Below are positions 34,435-63,809 of a stretch of DNA of 64,000 nucleotides, in pieces. The stretch is from the NCBI RefSeq assembly GCF_003003055.1, contig NZ_PVTV01000011.1, forward strand, positions 558,001 to 622,000. The letters are read 5' to 3'. This DNA is from Jezberella montanilacus. GTDB lineage: Bacteria; Pseudomonadota; Gammaproteobacteria; Burkholderiales; Burkholderiaceae_B. The notes beneath the pieces were generated by a model, which was given only the letters and a program-made list of their open reading frames with translations, did not search any database and had not been told where the DNA came from. Position numbers and translations under genes: made by a program. Numbering within the stretch: position 1 is the stretch's first letter; every line of letters begins with the position of its first letter.

Positions 34435-34454
34435 TCTGCGTAAGTTAACCCAGA

Positions 34455-34664
34455 TCGGGAGAGACCGTAGAAGACCCAAGTCTTGTGCGGCGCCGAAGGA
34501 GCAACCGCCCCGGAAACTCTCAGGCAAAAGGACCGATGGGCGCAGTGAACTCTGAAGAGCTGCCGAGTTTCGTCACTCGGCACACCGCAGGAGCAAACGA
34601 TTGTCGAACCACCAGCTGGTGCGACGGGTCGTGAATCTCTCAGGTACCAAACAGAGGGGGCGTG
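34455..34664 (+). ncRNA. Tandem glycine riboswitch
   Basis: Two glycine aptamers in series. Aptamer 1 (~34455-34541) carries CGGGAGAGACC, CGCCGAAGGAGCAA and ACTCTCAGGCAAAAGGACCG, the hallmark conserved strings. Aptamer 2 (~34543-34664) carries ACTCTGAAGAG, CGCAGGAGCAAACG and ATCTCTCAGGTACCAAACAGAGG. The strings are in the known order and the linker is short, as in cooperative gcvT-type switches. It precedes a DadA-type gene rather than gcvT. A hairpin over that gene's ribosome site follows, suggesting glycine controls translation (inference; it is usually an ON switch). Confidence 0.95.
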
Positions 34665-34687: not shown

Positions 34688-34710
34688 CCAAACCCCTTTG
34701 ACGTTTGGAG
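34688..34710 (+). promoter_or_regulatory. Hairpin that can mask the dadA ribosome-binding site
   Basis: CCAAAC (34688-34693) pairs with GTTTGG (34703-34708), and the second arm overlaps the GGAG (34707-34710) that lies eight bases before the dadA ATG. There is no T-tract, so control of translation rather than of termination is the simpler reading. Likely expression platform of the riboswitch; inferred. Confidence 0.5.
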
Positions 34711-34718
34711 CCCAACTC

Positions 34719-35948
34719 ATGAAATCAATCGCTGTTATTGGCGGTGGCATCACAGGTGTCACGACAGCCTACGCCTTAGCTAAACGGGGTTATGCCGCGA
34801 CCTTGTTTGAGAAACACCGTTATTCAGCCATGGAGACATCCTTCGCTAACGGTGGCCAACTATCAGCCTCTAATGCCGAGGTCTGGAACCATCATTCAAC
34901 CATCATCAAAGGCCTGAAATGGATGTTAAAGAGCGACGCCCCGCTACTTGTCAATCCTAAACCAAGCTGGCATAAATTATCCTGGTTTGCCGAATTTATC
35001 GGCAATATCCCGAATTACCGCACAAACACGATTGAGACGACTCGTCTGGCGATTGCTGCCCGGCAGCATTTGTTTGCCTGGGCTGAGGCCGAAGGCGTCG
35101 AATTTGATCTAAAGAAGCAAGGCATTCTGCATATCTATCGCGATAAAAAAGGCTTCGACCATGCTGGCGAGGTATCTAAATTGCTGGCCGAAGGTGGTCT
35201 GCCCCGTCGCGCAGTGACCCCCGACGAAATGAAAGCCATCGAGCCCACCTTGGCTGGTACCTATTACGGCGGTTACTTTACTGAGAGCGATTCAACTGGC
35301 GACATCCATAAATTTACGGTTGGGATGGCCGCTGCTGCCGAACGGTTAGGCGTTAAAACCCTCTATGGGCGCGAGGTGACTGCACTGGCCAGTGACGGCA
35401 CACAGGCGAGCGTTGCACTTAAAGCAGGCGACTACGACGACACAATAGAAACCTTACAGTTCGACGGCATGGTTGTGTGTGCTGGCGTTGCAAGCCGCCA
35501 ATTTGCCGCCCAGCTTGGCGATCGCGTCAACATCTACCCTGTCAAAGGCTATTCAATCACCGTCAATTTATTGGATGCGCAAAGCCAAACTTCAGCGCCC
35601 AACGTCAGCCTGCTGGATGACGAAACAAAATTAGTCACGAGCCGCTTAGGTATCGATCGCTTCCGGGTGGCGGGGACCGCAGAATTCAACGGCTACAACA
35701 AAGATATTCGCGCGGATCGGATTCGTCCTTTGATTGACTGGGTTGAACGATGCTTCCCTGGTGTGAACACGCGCCAGGTTATCCCCTGGGCCGGTCTTCG
35801 CCCCATGATGCCCAATCTGATGCCTCGTGTCGGTAGGGGTCAGCAGGCTAATGTGTTTTACAACACCGGGCACGGCCATCTTGGCTGGACTCTATCCGCC
35901 GTGACGGCTGATATGGTGAGTGGGGTGATTGATCAGGCAAGTCAGTGA
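34719..35948 (+). CDS. dadA: D-amino-acid dehydrogenase-type FAD oxidoreductase (DadA-like)
   Basis: A 409-residue flavoenzyme. N-terminal FAD motif IAVIGGGITGVTTAYALAKRGY, then FEKHRYSAMETSFANGGQLS, the typical DadA substrate/FAD segment, and C-terminal NTGHGHLGWTLSAVTADMVS. DadA oxidises D-amino acids to 2-oxo acids and ammonia, passing electrons to the respiratory chain. ATG at 34719 has GGAG eight bases upstream. It is the gene under the tandem glycine riboswitch, so glycine, which has no chirality, may be a physiological substrate or signal. No alanine racemase (dadX) is adjacent, unlike the usual dad operon. Confidence 0.88.
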   Translation: MKSIAVIGGGITGVTTAYALAKRGYAATLFEKHRYSAMETSFANGGQLSASNAEVWNHHSTIIKGLKWMLKSDAPLLVNPKPSWHKLSWFAEFIGNIPNYRTNTIETTRLAIAARQHLFAWAEAEGVEFDLKKQGILHIYRDKKGFDHAGEVSKLLAEGGLPRRAVTPDEMKAIEPTLAGTYYGGYFTESDSTGDIHKFTVGMAAAAERLGVKTLYGREVTALASDGTQASVALKAGDYDDTIETLQFDGMVVCAGVASRQFAAQLGDRVNIYPVKGYSITVNLLDAQSQTSAPNVSLLDDETKLVTSRLGIDRFRVAGTAEFNGYNKDIRADRIRPLIDWVERCFPGVNTRQVIPWAGLRPMMPNLMPRVGRGQQANVFYNTGHGHLGWTLSAVTADMVSGVIDQASQ

Positions 35949-37220: not shown

Positions 37221-39560
37221 ATGTCGCCAAATCAATATTCGAGCTATCAAATGCTTAGAGACAGCAATTTATTTGAGTTGCTCACTGACGACGAATTACA
37301 GCTCCTCGTCTCGCGTGCGACTGAAATGCAAGTCCCTGCTGGTACAAACTTGCTCACCGAGGGTGAAACCTGCAGCCATATCTTCTGGCTGATTGCGGGC
37401 ACGGTCAATGTTCTAGCTCAGGGCGAAACAATAGCGCAAGTTGATAGTGTGCAATGTTTTGGTGAACTTCCTTGCTTGTCCCCAGGTACAGCGTGTTCGA
37501 CCACCGTTAGCGCAATCACTCCTTGCAGGGTACTTCGCATTGATCGCGCATCCTTTCTTGAAGTTCTGAATACTGTTCCTAAGCTATGGCAAATCCTTTT
37601 TAGTCAAACAAGTGAGCGGCTCAGTTCATCAAACAAGCCGCTAAGCGAAGAAAGTAAACGCCTTCGCGATTTGCTCAAAAGCACCGGACTACTTAAAGAC
37701 CTCACCGACAAGGAGTTGGGATTTTTAGCTACTCGCACGACCGAGAGTCGCACAGCAAGTGGCACCAATCTGTTGGTGCAGGGCCAGCCAGCCAGCAATG
37801 CATTTTGGCTGATATCTGGATCAGTTCATGTCATCGTGAACGGCGAGATCATTTCGCAAGTCAATACGCCCCAATGCTTCGGCGAGATGTCGTGTCTAGT
37901 GCGTGGCAGCACCTGCTCCGCCACCATTATGACCATTGACGAATGTGTCATTCTGACGATCGATCAGGCCAGGTTTGTCGAAGTACTGAATGCGGTCCCC
38001 CGGATGTGGGAGACATTTTTTGTGCAATCCAGTAAAAGATTAATGGCATCCAATCAGCGTATGAGCGAAGTACTTGCTCACGTGCCTCAGGGATTCATGA
38101 AGCTGGACAGATCAGCGCGGATTACTCAAGAGTACTCAGCAAAATGCTTACGATATTTTCATGAAATGAACTTGTCTGGCAAGGAGTTCACCCAACTCCT
38201 TAAAATGGATGATCTCCACGAGCTCGAGTCCTGGATGGAAATCTACGAAATGCTGTTTACGGATAGTTTGGTGCCCTTCAATGACTTAACTGCCTTGCTC
38301 ACCAGCCAGCACAGAGTGGAAGAAGATGGTAAAGCAACTGACTTTTCGTTCACGTACCATCCCTCAGTGGATGCTCGAGGCCAGATTATCGCGATCGACA
38401 TCGGTATCGAGGATGTCACTGAGCTGCGCAAACTTGAGCTTGCAAATGCCGCCATGCAATATGAGCAAAATGTGCTTGGTCGTATTTATGGCGACCCTGA
38501 GACCTTCTTAAGTATGCTTGAACTGATGGGTATGGCAATAACAGACTGTCAAGATCTTTGCGACTCAAGTAATGCTTACGAAGTCGCCAGCTTTGGACGA
38601 CAGATAGAAATCACCATGAGATCTGTGCACAGCTTAAAAGGCTTAGCGGGGGTATTCGGATTAGATTCAACTTCTCGCTGTTGTGACGAAATGGCTCACC
38701 AAATCCGGGAGCTTGAAGAGCAAGTAACGAAATACAGCGCCAATGAGGTGCAGCCTTTGCTCGCCGGGTTTGTAGAAGATTTCAACCGATCGATCGAGCA
38801 ACTGAAACACGAAGCGGCGAAAGCCAATGCATTAGAGAAGAAAATTGGTGCGACATTACTGAAGCGGCTAAAAGGGGTCGTGTTCTCTCAGACAGACTTC
38901 GCAGCCCTGAAAGATCATGTCAAATCAGGCCGCTCGCCTCAGGCTATTGCGTTGATTGCCGCTGCTGAAGCGAGAGATCCATTGCAACTTTTCAATAATT
39001 GGGCTGTGCAAGTCGATTTAGCTGCCAGGACACTCGGTAAAAAAGCTCGGTTTGAATTGACTGGCACAGGTGGTGCAATCGACAAAGATCTATTCATTGA
39101 GCTGAGCAGTCTGCTTGTGCATGTCATGAACAATGCAGTTGATCATGGGATCGAACCGCCTGACGAGCGAGAGGACAAAGGTAAACCCCGCGAAGGCGTA
39201 CTCAAAGCACATGTCTTAGTCGAGAATGGCCTGCTTTCGGTTGAGATCACCGATGATGGTCGAGGGATCGACTGGGTTCGCTTGCCTGAACTGGCACGGA
39301 ATAAACCCAACGTCGATCAGCAAGCGGTCAGCAATTATGAACAGAGCGGCGAGCTCTGGAGGATTTTGTTACTGCCCGGTTTCACGACCTCATCACTGGT
39401 CACGCGTTATTCGGGCTACGGGGTGGGGCTGGACTCAATCAATCAAATGGTGCTCGACAAAGGCGGGATTCTCAATATATATAGTGTGCCAGATAACGGG
39501 ACGACCATTTCAATCAAGATCCCATCATCGGCCAACTCTGAGGTCGCTCATGTTTCCTAA
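37221..39560 (+). CDS. CheA-like histidine kinase with two cNMP-binding-like domains
   Basis: A 779-residue cytoplasmic protein. Residues ~18-130 and ~150-275 are two cyclic-nucleotide-binding-like beta-barrels (FGEL and FGEM cassettes). ~290-405 is a PAS-like linker (VPQGFMKLDRSARITQ at its start, DIGIEDVTELRKLE at the end). An Hpt domain has the phospho-histidine at 470 (SVHSLKGLAGVFG). The HATPase domain has the N-box HVMNNAVDHGIE near 634, G1 DDGRGI near 678 and the GYGVGLDSI lid near 732, as in CheA. No CheW-like or receiver domain. It overlaps the receiver gene by 11 bases, so the receiver is the likely phosphate acceptor. In both cNMP domains the phosphate-binding arginine is replaced by cysteine. 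Confidence 0.8.
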   Translation: MSPNQYSSYQMLRDSNLFELLTDDELQLLVSRATEMQVPAGTNLLTEGETCSHIFWLIAGTVNVLAQGETIAQVDSVQCFGELPCLSPGTACSTTVSAITPCRVLRIDRASFLEVLNTVPKLWQILFSQTSERLSSSNKPLSEESKRLRDLLKSTGLLKDLTDKELGFLATRTTESRTASGTNLLVQGQPASNAFWLISGSVHVIVNGEIISQVNTPQCFGEMSCLVRGSTCSATIMTIDECVILTIDQARFVEVLNAVPRMWETFFVQSSKRLMASNQRMSEVLAHVPQGFMKLDRSARITQEYSAKCLRYFHEMNLSGKEFTQLLKMDDLHELESWMEIYEMLFTDSLVPFNDLTALLTSQHRVEEDGKATDFSFTYHPSVDARGQIIAIDIGIEDVTELRKLELANAAMQYEQNVLGRIYGDPETFLSMLELMGMAITDCQDLCDSSNAYEVASFGRQIEITMRSVHSLKGLAGVFGLDSTSRCCDEMAHQIRELEEQVTKYSANEVQPLLAGFVEDFNRSIEQLKHEAAKANALEKKIGATLLKRLKGVVFSQTDFAALKDHVKSGRSPQAIALIAAAEARDPLQLFNNWAVQVDLAARTLGKKARFELTGTGGAIDKDLFIELSSLLVHVMNNAVDHGIEPPDEREDKGKPREGVLKAHVLVENGLLSVEITDDGRGIDWVRLPELARNKPNVDQQAVSNYEQSGELWRILLLPGFTTSSLVTRYSGYGVGLDSINQMVLDKGGILNIYSVPDNGTTISIKIPSSANSEVAHVS

Positions 39561-39978
39561 AAACACCCGTGTTCTGGTTGTTGATGACATGCCTAAAATG
39601 CGAGAAATTGTCAGCAGTCAAGTTGCAAGTCTTGGCTATACGGACATCCTAAAAGCAAGTAACGGTCGTGAAGCGTTAGACCGGCTTAACCGAGAGTTCG
39701 ACTTTGACAATCCGATCGGTTTGGTATTTTCAGATTGGAACATGCCCATCATGCCAGGCATTGAACTACTGAGCGAAGTCAGGAAATCTGCCAAATTGCA
39801 GAATTTACCTTTCATCATGGTCACTGCCGAGGGGCAACGCGAGCAAGTGATGGAGGCCATCAAGATCGGCGTGTCGAACTACATTGTGAAGCCGTTTCCC
39901 GCTGTGCAACTTGAGCTCAAAATCAAAGCTGTGTGGGATAAACTCTCTGCAAAAGCAAATGCTATGACAAGCAGTTAG
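39550..39978 (+). CDS. CheY-like single-domain response regulator
   Basis: A 142-residue receiver. The ATG at 39550 is used; a longer frame in this register is just the shadow of the kinase. Acidic pocket VLVVDDMPKMRE, phospho-acceptor D62 (LVFSDWNMPIMPG), the threonine in FIMVTAEGQ and the lysine in VSNYIVKPF are all in place. There is no output domain. It overlaps the upstream CheA-like kinase by 11 bases and ends 36 bases before the converging phosphodiesterase-like gene. It probably carries the kinase's signal to an unknown target. Confidence 0.88.
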   Translation: MFPKNTRVLVVDDMPKMREIVSSQVASLGYTDILKASNGREALDRLNREFDFDNPIGLVFSDWNMPIMPGIELLSEVRKSAKLQNLPFIMVTAEGQREQVMEAIKIGVSNYIVKPFPAVQLELKIKAVWDKLSAKANAMTSS

Positions 39979-40014
39979 CTGGTTCAGATTAGAGAGCCTG
40001 CTTGACGAATAGCA

Positions 40015-40791
40015 TCAAAAGCTAAGAATCTGACCCGCCACCAAGGCTCTTGGCTCAACTCGGCCAATACGGTCGAGATGGTTTAACTCAGCCATGATTT
40101 GCTCGCCTTGTCCGGGTTTTAAGTGAGAAATCCAGATCTGAGTACTGGGACTCACGGGTTTCATCGAGTTAGCGAGTGACACGGGGCAGTAATGTTGGGA
40201 CAAGTCAGCCAAAAACTCATCGTTATCAGTGAAGGACGTCTCAATCAACAGATGTTTCAGCTTATCGATCTTTTGAACTTCATCCCAGAAGTCTTGACAA
40301 GGCCCACTATCACCGCTGAACGCGATGGTCGAACCGTTTGAACTAATGGCATAACCTACGCCGTCTACTGTATGCAAAGCAGGAAGAGCACGAATGGAAC
40401 GGTTGCCCAAGCAGACAACATCGCCTGTTTTCAGAGTAGACATCGTCATAAAAGGCTTTTCAGCACTCGGGATGACCGAAAAATCAGGCCAAATTTCCCC
40501 GTTAAAGATGTGCTTTTTTAGCGTAGCAATGGTTGCTGGCAAACCATATACATGCACCGGCTTACAGCGCTTAGCACCAACGGAATCAAGTAAAAGCGGT
40601 AAACTCAGAATATGATCGAGGTGGCTATGAGTCAGAAACACAAAATCAATTTTTGTCATGGCGTCAAGCGACAAGTCGCATACGCCAGTCCCAGCGTCGA
40701 TCAAAATATCATCATCAAGCAGCAATGATGTTGTGCGCAGGTCTCCGCCTATTCCCCCGCTACAGCCCAAAATCTGTAGTTGTGCTGCCAT
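40015..40791 (-). CDS. Metallo-beta-lactamase-fold, class II cyclic-nucleotide phosphodiesterase-like
   Basis: A 258-residue hydrolase of the MBL fold. The motif FLTHSHLDHILSLPLL matches the signature of class II cAMP phosphodiesterases (HxHLDH). Further metal ligands lie in ALHTVDGVGY, FSGDSGP and the C-terminal ISHLKPG histidine. LLIETSFTDNDEF is also typical of that family. ATG at 40791 is used; a TTG 12 bases upstream is possible. Expected to hydrolyse cAMP or cGMP, though other MBL esterases share the fold. It faces the cNMP-domain kinase and regulator from the opposite strand. Confidence 0.75.
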   Translation of the reverse strand: MAAQLQILGCSGGIGGDLRTTSLLLDDDILIDAGTGVCDLSLDAMTKIDFVFLTHSHLDHILSLPLLLDSVGAKRCKPVHVYGLPATIATLKKHIFNGEIWPDFSVIPSAEKPFMTMSTLKTGDVVCLGNRSIRALPALHTVDGVGYAISSNGSTIAFSGDSGPCQDFWDEVQKIDKLKHLLIETSFTDNDEFLADLSQHYCPVSLANSMKPVSPSTQIWISHLKPGQGEQIMAELNHLDRIGRVEPRALVAGQILSF

Positions 40792-40814
40792 TCGAATCGT
40801 CAATCCTTAAACCA

Positions 40815-41222
40815 ATGAAAAACGCCATTATTTGCGCAATTGTATCCCTTATGTGGGTAAATTTGGCAATAGCAAAAGCCAATCCAGAAGACTTTGCAGC
40901 TGCCGCAAAGCTAGGTAAACCGCTCGTCATCTGCAAAACCAAAGATGAGGCGCAGCAGTGCAGCGCAACTTGTAAACCGTTGGCGCCACTTGCGTTAAGC
41001 GTCGACGTCGATCTTAAAGAAGCAACGGTGGCTAAACGTATTTTTAAGGGAGAAAACCAGATTCAAGATACTAACTTGCGCCGCTGTAAAGTGACTGACC
41101 AAGACAATTGGTCTTGTAGTAACTTAGATGAGGATGCGAACTACCTGGAATCCATGAGCGACGGTAAGTATTTTTACATGATGGAAATTGATCAAAGTTC
41201 TTTCTACATGTGTAGCAAATGA
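40815..41222 (+). CDS. Small secreted cysteine-rich protein, unknown
   Basis: A 135-residue protein. ATG at 40815 starts a clear signal peptide (MKNAIICAIVSLMWVNLAIAKA). The mature part has cysteines in VICKTK, QQCSATC, RRCKV, WSCSN and YMCSK, an even number if one counts those after cleavage, so disulphides in the periplasm are likely. I do not recognise the family. It diverges from the phosphodiesterase-like gene across 23 bases and is opposite to the secreted phosphatase-fold gene. Possibly a ligand or partner of the neighbouring sensors; that is a guess. Confidence 0.65.
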   Translation: MKNAIICAIVSLMWVNLAIAKANPEDFAAAAKLGKPLVICKTKDEAQQCSATCKPLAPLALSVDVDLKEATVAKRIFKGENQIQDTNLRRCKVTDQDNWSCSNLDEDANYLESMSDGKYFYMMEIDQSSFYMCSK

Positions 41223-41268
41223 CGACTGACTTTGCTCATACTCCAGCATACGGTGACACTTTCTAAAT

Positions 41269-41802
41269 TTATTTTTTTGGTAGTTTTTCGAGCACCAGAG
41301 GGATCAATTCACTAATCTGCTTAAAGACCTTGTCATAAAAAGCAGAGTTCTGGCCATAGGCATCGAGCACTTCAGTGGGCGTACCGGTTGCAAACTCAGC
41401 CAACAAATGCACTTTGCTTGCGGCATCAGGATAGTCAGTCAAAATACGCTGACGGTGGCTCGGGCTCATCACAAAAATATAATCTGAAAAGCTAATCACG
41501 CTTTTGTCAATCTGCGCGGCACGATGATTTGACACGTTAATACCAAGCGGCTTCAAAAGTCGCACAAAATCAGGCTCTGGCGTCACATTGTAGGGATTCA
41601 TGTTGACCGCCCTCGAGATGATGGCAATGTTTGCGTGATGCTTCACGACCCATTGCTGAGCCAGTGCAGCAGAGGTCATACTGCGACCAGTATTGCCCGT
41701 ATCCACAAACGCGATCCTCAGGGGATCTGCAGCCAAAGCATTCGTCATCAAAGTCATCGCAATCAAACCAGTTTGTACTGCTCTTAAAACAAGTTTCAAC
41801 AT
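41269..41802 (-). CDS. Secreted LMW-phosphatase-fold protein without the catalytic cysteine
   Basis: A 177-residue protein with an N-terminal signal segment (LVLRAVQTGLIAMTLMTNALAAD) and a low-molecular-weight protein tyrosine phosphatase/arsenate reductase-like body. The family P-loop VCxGNxCRSP is present as FVDTGNTGRSM: the catalytic cysteine is D34 while R40 is kept. The downstream NVSNHRAAQI and the LDAYGQNSAFYDK acid-loop region also fit. It should bind a phosphate-like anion but not form the cysteine intermediate. Its ATG directly follows the stop of the sensor kinase gene (zero gap). Probable role: periplasmic sensing partner (inference). Confidence 0.7.
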   Translation of the reverse strand: MLKLVLRAVQTGLIAMTLMTNALAADPLRIAFVDTGNTGRSMTSAALAQQWVVKHHANIAIISRAVNMNPYNVTPEPDFVRLLKPLGINVSNHRAAQIDKSVISFSDYIFVMSPSHRQRILTDYPDAASKVHLLAEFATGTPTEVLDAYGQNSAFYDKVFKQISELIPLVLEKLPKK

Positions 41803-43635
41803 CTACGTTACCTCTGCAGCAAGAGTTGGAATATAAAAGTAAAAAGTCGAGCCGCGATCTTCTTCTGAATGCACACCGATTTCACCACCGTGCAGTTGCA
41901 CAAGATTTTTTGTGATGGCAAGCCCCAAACCGGTGCCTTCACCCTTGTTCGTATATTCGTTACCCAACTGTTTGAACTGCTCAAATATCTGAGCCTGGTT
42001 TTCAGGTGCAATACCGATGCCAAAATCTTTGATCTCAAAGTTCGTTCGATCTGCCTGTTGAAAATACGATATCAATACCTTCCCTTCAGGAAAGCTGAAT
42101 TTCACAGCATTGGTTAGTAGATTAACAATGATTTGTTTCAGCCTTCTTTCATCTGCGCTGATTGATAACGATGTTGAATTATCATTAAAAACAATTTCGA
42201 TACCTTGAGCATCTGCGCGTGCTTTAACTAGCATAATGGCTTGCTCAACAAGTTGATGAATATTAAATTGAGTGATATTTAATTCAAGCTCGCCCGCTTC
42301 AATTTTAGAGACGTCTAATACATCGTTGATCAACGCCAGCAGATGTTTACCAGAGCGATGGATATCTGAAACATATTCTTGCTGTTTGTCATTCAGCTCG
42401 CCGAAGTATTTACCGAGTAGGATTTCTGAAAATCCGATCACCGCATTTAACGGCGTTCTTAATTCATGCGACATATTCGCTAAAAAGTCTGACTTGTGCT
42501 TGTTGGCGACTTCAAGTTGAAACGATTTTTCAAGCAGCTCTTTGGTTCGGTTTTGAACGCTTCGTTCCAGTACTAAGCGAGACGTACGAAGCTGGTCAGA
42601 CATCAAATTAAAATCAATCGCTAGCTCATGAAGCTCCGTGATCGTGCCAAAATAAACTTCTTCAGGAAAGTCTTCGCTCGCGATTCGGTGCGCAGCTTCT
42701 TGAATGGCGTGTATCGGCTGTGACATTTTTCTTGAAAAATATAGTCCCGCCAAAATCGAACAGAGAAAACCCACGCTAATCAGGATTGCCGTTCTGATGA
42801 TTGCTGGATTTAGCGCTGCATAAATTTCGCTATCAGGCAGCTCAACTAACACCTTCCAACCGAGCGGTACGACAGTCGCGAAGGTGGTGAGCGTACGGGT
42901 GCTATTCTGATTATTAAGCATAACGCTTTCCATCTCGTTATCTCGAGAAGCGAGCGCTAGCGTGACAGCGGCAGTCTGCGACAAGTTCGTCTGTTTGAGC
43001 ACGGCACTGGTATCTGGGCTTGCGATCAAATCTCCGAGCGTATCAACGACATACGCATACCCGGTTTCACCAATTTTTAATCGTCCGATGACCTCATAGA
43101 TGAACTTGAGATTGATATCCGCGACGACAAAGGATGGATTTCTGCCCGCTGACAAAAGTGAGATTTTGATGTACGGCTCGGTTTCTTTGAGATAAAAAAC
43201 CGGGCTGTACCAAACCTTACCTGTTCTCGTCTCAGTAAAAAAAAGTTCGCCTGACCGATCTGTATTCTTATCAAGATGATCAAGCGCTAGGCGTGACACA
43301 GAGACCTTTTCAATGCCATGACGATCAATCACCTGTATGTCCGTCACCGCTGGAGCAACGCGCAGAACCTTTAACAAAGCCAGCTTTTGTTGCTGAGCAT
43401 CGTCGCCGCTGGTTGCAGAGAGACTTGCGACAAAAAGATATTTTTCGATCTGAGAGAAAAAGTCATGAAGCTGGGTTGCAGCCAATTTTGCTTTTTCAAC
43501 TTGTATTTTTTTTTGCGCTTCAAGGTTTTCTTGGTAAGAAAAATACAAACCCAAGCCGCTACTGACGCCGACCACTCCGCACACCAAAAGCATGATGGGT
43601 ATGCAGTAAGACCAGAATAGTGCTTTTCTCTTCAC
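41803..43635 (-). CDS. Membrane sensor histidine kinase with Cache-type periplasmic domain
   Basis: A 610-residue kinase. First helix CIPIMLLVCGVVGVSSGLGLYF, a periplasmic Cache-like domain (~33-285, with VIGRLKIGETGYAYVVDTLG and TFATVVPLGWKVLVELPD), a second helix (ILISVGFLCSILAGLYF), HAMP, coiled coil, HisKA with His390 (SHELRTPLNAVIGFSE), and HATPase (N-box NLLTNAVKFS, FGIGIAPENQ, GEGTGLGLAITKNLVQLHGG). No receiver domain. It lies head-to-head with the Tat-exported binding protein and REC-cyclase pair (72-base gap), so D54 of the cyclase's receiver is the likely partner. A secreted phosphatase-fold gene follows with no gap. Confidence 0.9.
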   Translation of the reverse strand: MKRKALFWSYCIPIMLLVCGVVGVSSGLGLYFSYQENLEAQKKIQVEKAKLAATQLHDFFSQIEKYLFVASLSATSGDDAQQQKLALLKVLRVAPAVTDIQVIDRHGIEKVSVSRLALDHLDKNTDRSGELFFTETRTGKVWYSPVFYLKETEPYIKISLLSAGRNPSFVVADINLKFIYEVIGRLKIGETGYAYVVDTLGDLIASPDTSAVLKQTNLSQTAAVTLALASRDNEMESVMLNNQNSTRTLTTFATVVPLGWKVLVELPDSEIYAALNPAIIRTAILISVGFLCSILAGLYFSRKMSQPIHAIQEAAHRIASEDFPEEVYFGTITELHELAIDFNLMSDQLRTSRLVLERSVQNRTKELLEKSFQLEVANKHKSDFLANMSHELRTPLNAVIGFSEILLGKYFGELNDKQQEYVSDIHRSGKHLLALINDVLDVSKIEAGELELNITQFNIHQLVEQAIMLVKARADAQGIEIVFNDNSTSLSISADERRLKQIIVNLLTNAVKFSFPEGKVLISYFQQADRTNFEIKDFGIGIAPENQAQIFEQFKQLGNEYTNKGEGTGLGLAITKNLVQLHGGEIGVHSEEDRGSTFYFYIPTLAAEVT

Positions 43636-43707
43636 TATGGTGCGCGCTTCAAAAGTCCTATAGTATGGTATCCATCATACCTAATTACCTTCAATTGGCG
43701 GTAAAAA

Positions 43708-44682
43708 ATGCAACGTCGCGAATGGTTCAAGCTCATTACGGGTGGATTCACGCTCGCCGCGTGGCGTTCAGCAGGATCGGCTGAAATAGTCAGAAAAATT
43801 GGGCTGCTGATCATCAATGCTGGTTATGAAAATGAATGGGATGCGCTGCTAAAACGTCTAGCTGGTTTAGGCTGGGAAGACGGCAAAAACATAAAGATCA
43901 TTTACAAGTACGCACAGAATGATATGTCAAGAATCCCACAGCTGGCACAGGAACTGGTAGCTGAGAAAGTTGAATTAATTGCAGCTCAGTCGACGATTGG
44001 GGCACTCATTGCAAGCAAAGTTGTCGGTGGCCTACCCATCGTCGGGGTGGGTATGTTTGACCCGATTGCCAGCGGTGCAGTCACGAATCTTGCCAAACCC
44101 GGCGGGTACATCACGGGCACCTCTTACCTGGCAAACGACATCACGTTAAAAACGCTTGAACTCGTCAGGCTGGTCCTGCCAGAGGCAAAAAATATTGCCA
44201 TATTGATCAATCCTAATGGCACCATGCGTAACTATTTAGTTGATCTTTTCGACCAGCAATCCCCAAGTTTGGGCTTCCAAAACACGAATTTTTTTGCAGG
44301 CACCGAAAGTGAAATTACTGACGCGTTCGGTAAGATGGCAGTTGGTCAGTTCGATGCAACCGTTATCTGTCAGAACCCTTTTTACGCACAGCAAAGATTA
44401 CAACTGGCCGATCTCGGTATCCGACACAAATTGCCGACCTTTGCACAATGGGGTCGCTATGTTGAAGACGGCGTGTTGGCGAGTTATGGCAACGACATCA
44501 CATCCACCTATCCTGAAACGGCTAAGTTTATCGATCAAATTTTGCGAGGTGGCTCAATCGCTAACATGCCTATCGAGCAATCCTCGACATTTGAAATGGC
44601 CATTAATTTAAAGACTGCAGATAAACTAGGGGTCACCATCAGCAGTGAGCTAAAGTTGCGAGCGAACAAGTTGATTCAATAG
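43708..44682 (+). CDS. Tat-exported ABC_sub_bind (TrpX-like) solute-binding protein
   Basis: A 324-residue periplasmic binding protein of the PF04392 type. The N-terminus MQRREWFKLITGGFTLAAW has the twin-arginine export pattern. The body has IGLLIINAGYENEWDALLKRLAGLGWEDG (first lobe), LPIVGVGMFDPIASGAV and AILINPNGTMRN. No permease or ATPase accompanies it. The REC-cyclase gene follows after 12 bases on the same strand and the sensor kinase is divergent, so it is more likely a ligand-presenting receptor for signalling than part of an importer. Ligand unknown. Confidence 0.85.
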   Translation: MQRREWFKLITGGFTLAAWRSAGSAEIVRKIGLLIINAGYENEWDALLKRLAGLGWEDGKNIKIIYKYAQNDMSRIPQLAQELVAEKVELIAAQSTIGALIASKVVGGLPIVGVGMFDPIASGAVTNLAKPGGYITGTSYLANDITLKTLELVRLVLPEAKNIAILINPNGTMRNYLVDLFDQQSPSLGFQNTNFFAGTESEITDAFGKMAVGQFDATVICQNPFYAQQRLQLADLGIRHKLPTFAQWGRYVEDGVLASYGNDITSTYPETAKFIDQILRGGSIANMPIEQSSTFEMAINLKTADKLGVTISSELKLRANKLIQ

Positions 44683-44694
44683 AGCGGATAATCC

Positions 44695-45822
44695 ATGCAG
44701 ACCACACGTATTCTGGTTATCGATGACACGGTTGTCAATCTGAAGTTAATGGCCGCTTTGCTTGAAAGCAAAGGATATGAAGTAGCGCTTGCGGCTAGCG
44801 GACTAGAAGGCCTTGAAAAAATAAAGGCCCAACAACCAGATCTGATTCTTCTAGATGTCATGATGCCTGAAATATCGGGCTACGAGGTATGCCGCAGGCT
44901 TAGGGCGCAGTCGGAGACGAGCCTGTTACCCATCATTATGGTGACCTCGCTTGACGAGACCGAGCGTATCAAAGGGCTCGAAGTTGGAGCAGATGATTTT
45001 CTAACCAAGCCAATTAATCAGGCTGAATTATTCGCTCGCGTCAAATCGTTGCTGCGCATCAAACATCTTCAGCAACAGATCGTCGAACAAAACCAGCAAT
45101 TAAGCGAGCTCAACGCCTCACTCTCACAGCAAGTTGAAACGCAAGTGCAAGAGATTGAGAAAATGGCCAGTCTGCAGAGGTTTTTACCTGAGCAAGTTGC
45201 GGACAGGGTCATGCAAGATGGTGACGAGTCGATCTTCAGGCCACACCGCAGAGAAATAACTGTTGTCTTTATCGATATCAGAGGCTTCACGACCATGGTT
45301 GACTCGACAGAGCCCGAAGAAGTCATGGAGGTGCTTAGCGCCTATCACGACAGAATGGGACGCTTGATCATGAAGCACAATGGCACCCTTGAACGCTTTG
45401 CGGGAGACGGGATCATGATCTTTTTTAACGATCCGATCAATCTGCCAGAGCATAGTACGGTTGCGGTCGCTCTGGCCATCGAAATGCAACAAGCCTTCGC
45501 CGAGCTTCAGAATCAATGGCGAAAAATGGGTTTGCAACTCGGTTTTGGGGTGGGCATTGCCAGAGGTTATGCCACGCTCGGTATGATTGGTTTTGAGGGC
45601 CGTCGCGACTACGCCGCGATTGGTAGTGTGACGAACGCATCCGCCAGGCTGTGTGAGCAAGCCAAAGATGGCGAAATCCTGATGGATTTGAAAACCTTCG
45701 CCAGAATGTCGCAGCAAGACAAAAGTGAAAAGGTCGGCGATATAACACTCAAAGGGTTTATCCGACCCTTCGAAGTGTATAAAATTGATCGCACAACCTT
45801 ATTGCGCGACCCCGACGTCTAA
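44695..45822 (+). CDS. Response regulator with class III nucleotide cyclase output
   Basis: A 375-residue protein. Receiver domain at 1-125 (VIDDTVVNLKLMAALL, D54 in LILLDVMMPE, TSLD, FLTKPINQAELFARV). A coiled-coil linker with glutamines (QQQIVEQNQQLSELNASL) follows, then a class III cyclase catalytic domain (~190-360). Metal aspartates D194 (VFIDIRGFT) and D238 (AGDGIMIFF) are 44 apart, as in active cyclases. The purine-selecting positions are unusual: R234 in place of the usual lysine and S311 in IGSVTNASARL in place of aspartate, so adenylate versus guanylate cannot be told. Likely phosphorylated by the divergent kinase. Confidence 0.85.
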   Translation: MQTTRILVIDDTVVNLKLMAALLESKGYEVALAASGLEGLEKIKAQQPDLILLDVMMPEISGYEVCRRLRAQSETSLLPIIMVTSLDETERIKGLEVGADDFLTKPINQAELFARVKSLLRIKHLQQQIVEQNQQLSELNASLSQQVETQVQEIEKMASLQRFLPEQVADRVMQDGDESIFRPHRREITVVFIDIRGFTTMVDSTEPEEVMEVLSAYHDRMGRLIMKHNGTLERFAGDGIMIFFNDPINLPEHSTVAVALAIEMQQAFAELQNQWRKMGLQLGFGVGIARGYATLGMIGFEGRRDYAAIGSVTNASARLCEQAKDGEILMDLKTFARMSQQDKSEKVGDITLKGFIRPFEVYKIDRTTLLRDPDV

Positions 45823-62804: not shown

Positions 62805-63809
62805 ATGGATATTTTTAAAATGAGCAGACGCGTATTTTTGCAAAATCTAACTGTGATTGCAGCTTCGGCTTCAATACAGGTAGGATCTGCGCTCGCAGCT
62901 AATCCAGACAAGATCAGGAAAATCGGTTTTTTAGTACCAGGCGAAGGCTACGAAAGTGCTTGGGATCAACTCATTTTCAGTTTGCATAGCCTCGGTTGGT
63001 CACAAGGCAGGAACCTACAGATCCTGACGCGCAAAACTTACAGTCGCACCGAAGACACTGCGGGACTCTTTAAAGAGCTCATTGCGGCAGGCATCGAGCT
63101 GGTTGTCACGACTGGAGCCTCCGCTGCCAGAGAGGCGTTGAAGGTTCAAACAAGTATTCCTATTATTTCAGCTGGAATGGTCGATCCTTTGGCTGCTGGT
63201 CTTGTCACGAGCCTAGCGCAACCTAACGTCAATCTTACGGGCGTTTCAATTCTGTTTGACGACATTGCGCTCAAGTTACTGGAATTGGTAAAAGTGCTAG
63301 ACCCCACCGTAACGAAAATCGCAACCTTAAGTAACCCAACGAGTACGACAGCTTCTAGAGTGCCCGCGAAATTAACCACAGCTGCCGCTGAAATGGGCAT
63401 CAGCAATCAGGTATTCCAGGCCCGTGATTTACCGGCGATTTCCGCCGTTTTCGATCAAATGATCGCGAATGAACAGAAGTGTCTGCTTGTGCTTCAGTCT
63501 CCCTACTTTGTATCTGTTTGCAAGGAGATTGCCCAGATCGCCATTGAACACAAGATTATGTGCGTTGGACAAGTTGAGACTTGCGTACAAGGTGGTTTCA
63601 TTGCCAGCTATGGGGTCAACTACACAAAGATATTTGCTCAATCAGCAAACTACGTCGATAAAATCCTCAAGGGCAAAGCCGTCAATCAGCTACCAATAGA
63701 ACAAGCGGGTGAAATGGCAATCGCGTTGAATCGAAGTACATTCAAGGCACTCGATCTGGACATACCCCCGAATCTTGAAGCGATTGCAGGCAAGGTGATC
63801 GAAGGTTGA
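62805..63809 (+). CDS. Tat-exported ABC_sub_bind (TrpX-like) solute-binding protein
   Basis: A 334-residue periplasmic binding protein of the same PF04392 type as the one at 43.7 kb. The twin-arginine signal is MSRRVFLQNLTVIAAS; an ATG at 62820 would begin exactly there and is as likely as 62805. Body: IGFLVPGEGYESAWDQLIFSLHSLGW, IISAGMVDPLAAGLVTSLAQP and ATLSNPTSTTA. Orphan: no permease, ATPase or kinase within the window beside it. Paralogy with the 43.7-kb receptor is visible (GYExxWDxL, LGW, VDPxAxG). Confidence 0.85.
   Translation: MDIFKMSRRVFLQNLTVIAASASIQVGSALAANPDKIRKIGFLVPGEGYESAWDQLIFSLHSLGWSQGRNLQILTRKTYSRTEDTAGLFKELIAAGIELVVTTGASAAREALKVQTSIPIISAGMVDPLAAGLVTSLAQPNVNLTGVSILFDDIALKLLELVKVLDPTVTKIATLSNPTSTTASRVPAKLTTAAAEMGISNQVFQARDLPAISAVFDQMIANEQKCLLVLQSPYFVSVCKEIAQIAIEHKIMCVGQVETCVQGGFIASYGVNYTKIFAQSANYVDKILKGKAVNQLPIEQAGEMAIALNRSTFKALDLDIPPNLEAIAGKVIEG

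Follow-up and report, generated by a model that had tools for sequence, protein, structure and literature searches.

Gene content of the locus

The subject of this analysis is an 8.6-kb block of signalling genes in Jezberella montanilacus, which lies within a 64,000-nucleotide stretch of contig NZ_PVTV01000011.1 (the window, whose first letter is position 1). The block was originally predicted to be a single cyclic-nucleotide circuit that senses a periplasmic signal, makes the nucleotide, reads it with a CheA-type kinase, and resets it with a phosphodiesterase. All of the genes so described are present, as confirmed by Pfam and by open reading frame (ORF) analysis, and the length of the ORFs and the significance of their family matches show that they are not chance occurrences. 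Comparison with relatives divides the block into two modules. Module A consists of a kinase with cyclic-nucleotide-binding (CNB), PAS, Hpt, and HATPase domains, an overlapping CheY gene, and a convergent gene for a class II-type phosphodiesterase of the metallo-β-lactamase (MBL) fold. Module B consists of a binding protein, a dCache histidine kinase, and a receiver (REC)-class III cyclase. We consider it fairly probable that these are two adjoining, independently inherited signalling modules rather than one circuit, and the single-circuit proposal is only partly supported. Coordinates are given in Table 1.

Table 1. Features of the signalling block and of a related pair to its right (window positions, unless a genome handle is given)
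Feature	Position	Strand	Basis or remark
Module A kinase, 779 aa	37221..39560	+	Pfam, AlphaFold2 model, Foldseek
Kinase CNB1	~37245-37640	+	
Kinase CNB2	~37665-38060	+	
Kinase PAS-like domain	~38091-38414	+	
Kinase Hpt helical region	~38496-38837	+	
Kinase HATPase_c	~39045-39524	+	
Module A stand-alone CheY-like receiver	39550..39978	+	Pfam, solved relatives, start codon
Module A MBL-fold class II-type phosphodiesterase	40015..40791	-	PF02112; convergent with CheY; alternative ORF start at 40803
Small protein, 135 aa	40815..41222	+	ORF; signal-peptide-like start
Exported low-molecular-weight (LMW)-phosphatase-like protein	41269..41802	-	PF01451; catalytic Cys replaced by Asp
Module B dCache-HAMP-HisKA-HATPase sensor kinase	41803..43635	-	Pfam
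Module B ABC_sub_bind binding protein	43708..44682	+	PF04392; divergent from Cache kinase, 72 bp between ORFs
Module B REC-class III nucleotidyl cyclase	44695..45822	+	PF00072, PF00211
Second ABC_sub_bind protein	62805..63809	+	dCache-HAMP-cyclase fusion just beyond the window at G000:C1:622377-624137

The kinase matches PF00027 in two stretches (E 9.8e-28), Hpt PF01627 (E 2.3e-5), and HATPase_c PF02518 (E 1.3e-10). Secondary structure in an AlphaFold2 model comprises two CNB barrels, a PAS-like domain between the CNB and Hpt parts (residues 291–398), a helical Hpt region, and an ATPase. The model was built from a 9-row alignment (mean predicted local distance difference test score 81.6, predicted template modelling score 0.36) and is confident for most residues, though not for the relative placement of the domains. 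In a Foldseek search with this model, the CNB pairs of PKA-R and PKG rank first, and T. maritima CheA P3P4 is at rank 45. The phospho-histidine of the Hpt region is kept in all eight alignment rows that cover it, as HSLKG in six and HNAKG in two Bdellovibrionia rows. The ATG of the CheY gene lies within the kinase gene, resulting in an 11-base overlap, and the best solved relatives of the encoded protein are themselves CheY proteins (3to5 and 4hns), with DWNMP, TAE, and KPF aligned.

The MBL gene, for which the start at 40791 is more likely, matches PF02112 (PDEase_II, E 1.6e-18), and its best solved match is 4ojv, a 3′,5′-cyclic-nucleotide phosphodiesterase 1. Its product contains THSHLDHI, an instance of the class II phosphodiesterase motif HxHxDH (PMC9117128; papers cited by PMC number were consulted in part). 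In fold, motif, and PF02112 match, it resembles class II phosphodiesterases such as yeast Pde1, Bacillus YhfI, Apyc1, and mycobacterial Rv1339. Unlike these, it falls short of the NCBIfam equivalog NF041851 (cyc_nuc_deg_phdiest), scoring 45.9 bits against a 400-bit cut-off. The class II signature noted originally is borne out by family and motif but not by the equivalog, and the activity is a predicted one.

Recurrence of the modules in relatives

Full-length relatives of the kinase are rare. Among the host genome and 100 relatives, 31 of them from the same genus, 65 of the 101 match the kinase. Among the matches listed, the CNB-PAS part is covered only in the host genome and in genomes G061 and G009, and the other 62 match via the ATPase or a CNB domain. 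A CNB-PAS profile at E 1e-40, the host genome aside, detected none of 368 genomes of the class, none of 397 of the phylum, and two of 398 of the order; these draws overlap, and the two positives (G061 and G958) are of one genus. A scan of named genomes yielded eight kinase loci, from a Rhodoferax metagenome-assembled genome (MAG), three beta-/Betaproteobacteria records, two Bdellovibrionia, one SAR324, and the record L031. These loci were chosen by the motif CFGE-SC, so conservation of its cysteines among them is not a result. L031 is titled as a Klebsiella pneumoniae MAG, yet its kinase sequence is that of G061:C10, a genome of the window's order, and the title is probably wrong. A tblastn search of 72,556 plasmid records with a threshold of E 1e-60 found no copy of the kinase.

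Gene order around the kinase is observed directly, and it separates the modules. A receiver gene follows the kinase in six of seven distinct readable loci (the window, L028, L030, L031, L032, and L035) and is absent from that place in L034; the contigs of L029 and L033 end inside the kinase and cannot be counted. None of the six kinase loci elsewhere has a match to the MBL enzyme, binding protein, Cache kinase, or cyclase domain in its flanks, which span ~1.3 kb upstream and 3.3 kb downstream in L028 and 10 kb on each side in L030, L031, L032, L034, and L035. The REC-cyclase query matches only receivers there. In G009, of the same genus as the host, the MBL gene (66%) and CheY are convergent as in the window and lie at a contig end, and the kinase (60–62%) lies at the end of another contig; contiguity of the three is our inference. 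The genes beyond module A in G009 are unlike the window's neighbours. Conservation of neighbourhood is seen for the MBL/CheY layout in G009 and for the order of module B in two genomes, but not for the two modules together, and the claim of one circuit is not supported.

The MBL enzyme has neighbours of its own. At E 1e-20 it has matches in 21 of 61 genomes, the host included. Of 13 loci compared in relatives (L038–L050), 10 have a CHASE2-type class III cyclase directly adjoining the MBL gene, the exceptions being L044, L046, and L048. Seven further MBL matches are excluded from this count. One of the ten loci, L041, supplied the cyclase query and is the only one in which the CHASE2 domain itself is found by Pfam; the others are assigned by 46–54% identity to the L041 cyclase. 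This adjoining gene is the best evidence for a cyclic-mononucleotide role of the MBL enzyme, and by this evidence the role, as originally claimed, is supported at the level of sequence. The host genome encodes four class III cyclases, none of which reads as a CHASE2-cyclase (two of them were read without a Pfam scan). Within the recurrent same-order cluster of L038–L050, matches to a GAF-MshEN-T2SSE ATPase were observed in 9 of 13 loci and to a CNB-rhodanese protein in 3 of 13.

In module B, the binding-protein gene, with what we take to be a twin-arginine-like start, ends 12 bases before the REC-cyclase start. Six REC-cyclase loci were compared, these being the six best non-self of 25 matches (L086, L087, L088, L090, L091, and L092, from five genomes). 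A histidine-kinase core lies within ~2 kb of the cyclase in all six. The order binding protein(s), Cache-type kinase, and REC-cyclase on one strand occurs in two, from G062 (three binding proteins, histidine kinase, REC, REC-cyclase) and G082 (five binding proteins, histidine kinase, REC-cyclase), both of the window's order. An NMT1-type binding protein occupies that place in L091, where the kinase matches over its core only; in L090 a binding protein and a Cache protein lie ~10 kb off on the other strand; and in L088 and L092 there is no binding-protein match near the REC-cyclase. At E 1e-20, just 6 of the 61 genomes, the host included, have a relative of the binding protein.

That the Cache kinase feeds a cyclase is argued most strongly by an analogy from the same genome. 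A second binding protein is found 17 kb to the right of module B together with a dCache-HAMP-cyclase fusion, the sensor part of which shares 37% identity with the Cache kinase over 364 aligned residues. The idea that binding protein, Cache kinase, and REC-cyclase form one sensory unit is supported on both counts, the order in two of six loci and the fusion. Sensor kinases linked to binding proteins are a known class, which module B resembles in having a binding protein beside a Cache kinase, without an intervening permease gene in the window; it differs in having a cyclase as output and one to five tandem binding proteins. In the second pair (window 62805-63809 and L094), the fusion cyclase has Lys and Asp at its substrate positions and is followed by another binding protein on the opposite strand.

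Module B is probably a sensor of some extracellular molecule with a cyclic nucleotide as its product. The periplasmic binding protein would load the ligand and present it to the dCache-HAMP histidine kinase, which would phosphorylate the receiver of the class III cyclase and thereby set the cyclic-nucleotide output. Such a module offers a testable route from extracellular solute to cyclic nucleotide, and a single genome has it wired in two ways, as a two-component system and as a direct fusion.

The closest solved relative of the REC-cyclase is CyaB (3r5g). Like class III cyclases of this kind, the window protein and six relatives keep both metal-binding Asp residues and the transition-state Asn and Arg; unlike class III adenylyl cyclases, this subfamily has altered substrate-specifying residues. 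In all seven proteins the first substrate position is Arg, His, or Gln, and the second is Ala or Gly. The window cyclase has Arg and Ala, and the ATP-specifying Lys/Asp (or Thr) are absent. At the second position Thr is an adenylyl variant, which is seen in CyaB. Adenylyl cyclases have Lys and Asp at these positions, and guanylyl cyclases have Glu plus a variable residue that may be Ala or Gly (PMC4215837). The first position in the REC-cyclases fits neither the adenylyl Lys nor the guanylyl Glu, and Ala/Gly at the second are among the residues seen in guanylyl cyclases (PMC4215837). Judged by PF00211 and by the kept metal and transition-state residues, the window protein is a predicted class III nucleotidyl cyclase, and the altered residues make the product of the subfamily of interest to measure.

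The kinase, its CNB pocket, and the readings considered

In CNB domains of the CRP type, the cyclic phosphate is held by an arginine. The phosphate-contacting residue of PycTIR is R97 (PMC11224242), and PycTIR retains this arginine when aligned with the kinase CNBs. In the kinase family it is missing from all 10 CNB domains of nine aligned proteins, being replaced by Cys in both window CNBs and in G009, by Ala in L028, L029, L032, L034, and L035, and by Val in L030 and L031; the FGE pocket motif is kept. The kinase CNBs are like those of PKA-R, PKG, and PycTIR in fold and in the FGE or GE motif, and unlike them in the loss of the phosphate arginine. Five of six comparison CNBs keep it, namely those of the host's MscS-type channel, a Ser/Thr-kinase fragment of G062, and three CNB-rhodanese proteins, while the host's NhaP-type antiporter does not (channel, antiporter, and kinase names were read from sequence). 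The comparison covered the host's CNB proteins apart from the fourth, the Crp/Fnr-like L106. The G062 fragment (L086, positions 2–727) reads as the end of a Ser/Thr kinase fused to a CNB with canonical Arg, located at a contig end beside the G062 module.

Because the arginine that grips the phosphate is missing in every aligned member of the family, the barrels are probably not canonical cyclic-nucleotide sensors. They probably sense something else or serve as structural or protein-contact domains. Among the members aligned, the tandem itself occurs only in the window kinase, and the other eight have a single CNB. The two window domains share 64 of 138 residues with each other and are about equally close to the single CNB of G009 (76 of 137 for CNB1 and 81 of 139 for CNB2), a pattern that looks like a duplication within the lineage.

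The description of the protein as a CheA-type kinase holds for the Hpt and HATPase_c domains but not for CheW/P5 or for H-kinase_dim by Pfam. There is no CheW (PF01584) or H-kinase_dim (PF02895) match in the window kinase or in five relatives, with the proviso that a divergent H-kinase_dim could escape HMMER (PMC10782961). CheA models of NCBIfam align over the HATPase_c domain, below their cut-offs. The host's own CheA (L002) has two CheW stretches and H-kinase_dim. In a survey by Berry et al., every one of 13,673 CheA sequences had CheW, and the main text contains neither ‘cNMP’ nor ‘cyclic nucleotide’ (PMC10782961). Being without CheW, the window kinase is, on its sequence, not a CheA as the survey defines it. 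It is like CheA in its Hpt, its CheA-type HATPase core, its partner CheY, and its Foldseek match to T. maritima CheA P3P4, and unlike the five-domain (P1–P5) CheA in lacking CheW/P5 and a Pfam-detectable H-kinase_dim and in carrying CNB and PAS domains in front.

As an input domain of histidine kinases, cNMP_binding is not new, since an Azospirillum survey records it for two strains (PMC4618731). Those kinases share PF00027 as an input with the window kinase; the survey excluded Che-type proteins, and the part of it consulted does not mention a CNB-PAS-Hpt-HATPase protein with its own CheY (PMC4618731). A literature search of titles and abstract openings, with subscription papers outside its scope, found no description of a cNMP-CheA kinase, a CHASE2-cyclase-phosphodiesterase cluster, or a binding protein-kinase-cyclase module.

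With these observations in hand, the single circuit appears unlikely; in it, module B makes a cyclic nucleotide, whose binding to the kinase CNBs gates phosphotransfer to CheY, and the signal is reset by the MBL enzyme. All of its parts are adjacent in the window, the MBL subfamily is linked to class III cyclases, the layout of kinase, CheY, and MBL gene is kept in G009 within the limits set by contig ends, and the FGE motif persists. Against this, all 10 aligned CNBs lack the arginine, kinase loci elsewhere have no cyclase or phosphodiesterase nearby, and the substrate residues of the cyclase are non-canonical. The circuit is weakened by the relatives' gene neighbourhoods and by the pocket, and its least supported step is the reading of the cyclic nucleotide by the kinase. 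The same two domains invite comparison with Pycsar anti-phage systems, in which a pyrimidine cyclase lies beside a CNB effector with a TIR or TM domain; here the cyclase would make a cyclic pyrimidine and the CNB protein would be the effector. Among PADLOC models, TIR effectors match the CNBs with a best E of 1.2e-37 (6.1e-37 for PycTIR), and PycC matches the cyclase (E 3.2e-21), but these matches are limited to the CNB and cyclase domains, the kinase has no TIR domain by Pfam, the cyclase is a REC output protein, and PycTIR keeps the arginine that the kinase has lost. This reading was rejected as resting on domain-level matches and is very improbable.

Two other readings concern what the kinase does, and each is possible at about the same low level. 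In one, the CNB pocket would now accept some other small molecule, following the precedent of trypanosome PKA, which has a substitution at this arginine and binds purine nucleosides in the site (PMC10959531). The arginine is absent across the aligned family while FGE is kept, and Foldseek matches include trypanosome PKA-R (6flo and 6hyq); the ribose-contacting glutamate of the trypanosome protein, however, has no counterpart, its place being taken by Ser, or by Pro in window CNB1. In the other, the protein is a chemosensory accessory kinase, partnered by way of its CheY with a chemoreceptor array or the flagellar motor, its CNB/PAS part sensing an internal state. Its CheY resembles those of known chemotaxis systems, and the host has a CheA with two CheW stretches. 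In SAR324 the kinase ORF overlaps a methyl-accepting chemotaxis protein (MCP) ORF by 4 bases. In L032, from Bdellovibrionia, Pfam identifies MCP and CheA genes ~2.3 kb upstream of the kinase, where there are also genes reading as CheW and CheR-CheB; L035 has a similar neighbourhood by ORF reading. Against this reading, the kinase lacks a CheW domain for coupling to receptors, and no chemotaxis gene was recognised beside the betaproteobacterial members by ORF reading of flanks that had no Pfam scan. For the family, the original view that CNB domains act instead of chemoreceptors is made doubtful by these MCP genes.

A further reading, possible but less likely than not, is a rare class of soluble CheA-like kinase, in which a CNB-PAS front with a re-tooled, Arg-less pocket replaces CheW/P5, an internal ligand sets CheY phosphorylation, and a class II phosphodiesterase has been recruited alongside in one genus. 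In the two-module reading, the soluble kinase would autophosphorylate on its Hpt histidine, phosphate would pass to the overlapping CheY, and the convergent MBL enzyme would hydrolyse a cyclic mononucleotide. Gene order, domain content, the recurrence of the units, and the residue changes are observed; ligands, phosphotransfer partners, enzyme activities, and output in these schemes are all predicted. If what the kinase responds to is not a cyclic nucleotide but another ligand, the protein would represent a bacterial CNB turned into a different sensor, as well as a route to drive CheY without a CheW domain.

Several observations weigh against the division into two independent modules and a non-canonical pocket. 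The modules adjoin here, and joint use is possible even if they are inherited apart. With an MBL gene next to the kinase, a connection to cyclic nucleotides stays plausible. G009 contains relatives of module A and of the REC-cyclase, the latter with a kinase, on different contigs, its three-gene unit is split by contig ends, and it has no binding-protein match at E 1e-20, so that module B itself is incomplete there. The order of module B recurs in only two of six REC-cyclase loci. Loss of the arginine is an indirect sign regarding ligand binding, and an Arg does occur one residue earlier in the G009 CNB and four residues earlier in window CNB2, neither being conserved. Within the two-module reading, a cyclic nucleotide probably links module B and the MBL enzyme, and the plausible connection between the modules in the Jezberella genome is metabolic, since the nucleotide made by module B could be degraded by the MBL enzyme.

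Other features of the locus

Two small genes lie between the modules, the signal-peptide-like starts of both products having been read from sequence rather than with a prediction program. The first product matches none of the families in Pfam, NCBIfam, or PADLOC. The ATG of the second, the LMW-phosphatase-like gene, directly follows the stop codon of the Cache kinase gene, and alignment to YwlE places Asp at the catalytic Cys. The resulting FVDTGNTGRS is found in the window protein, L112, and L113, and L114 keeps the Cys. At E 1e-15, relatives occur in the host genome and in 3 of 199 others in the order.

In 1-kb windows, the guanine-plus-cytosine content is 0.43–0.50 in the block, 0.49–0.54 to its left, and 0.47–0.49 to its right, a contrast too weak to argue for horizontal transfer. 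Counts of promoter- and terminator-like patterns were not above those of shuffled sequences, and repeats were just short families (2–3 copies) and short inverted pairs, for which there was no shuffle control. Outside the block, a Glycine riboswitch (Rfam RF00504) is located at 34446-34545, upstream of a gene at 34698-35948 that reads as an FAD amino-acid dehydrogenase-like gene.

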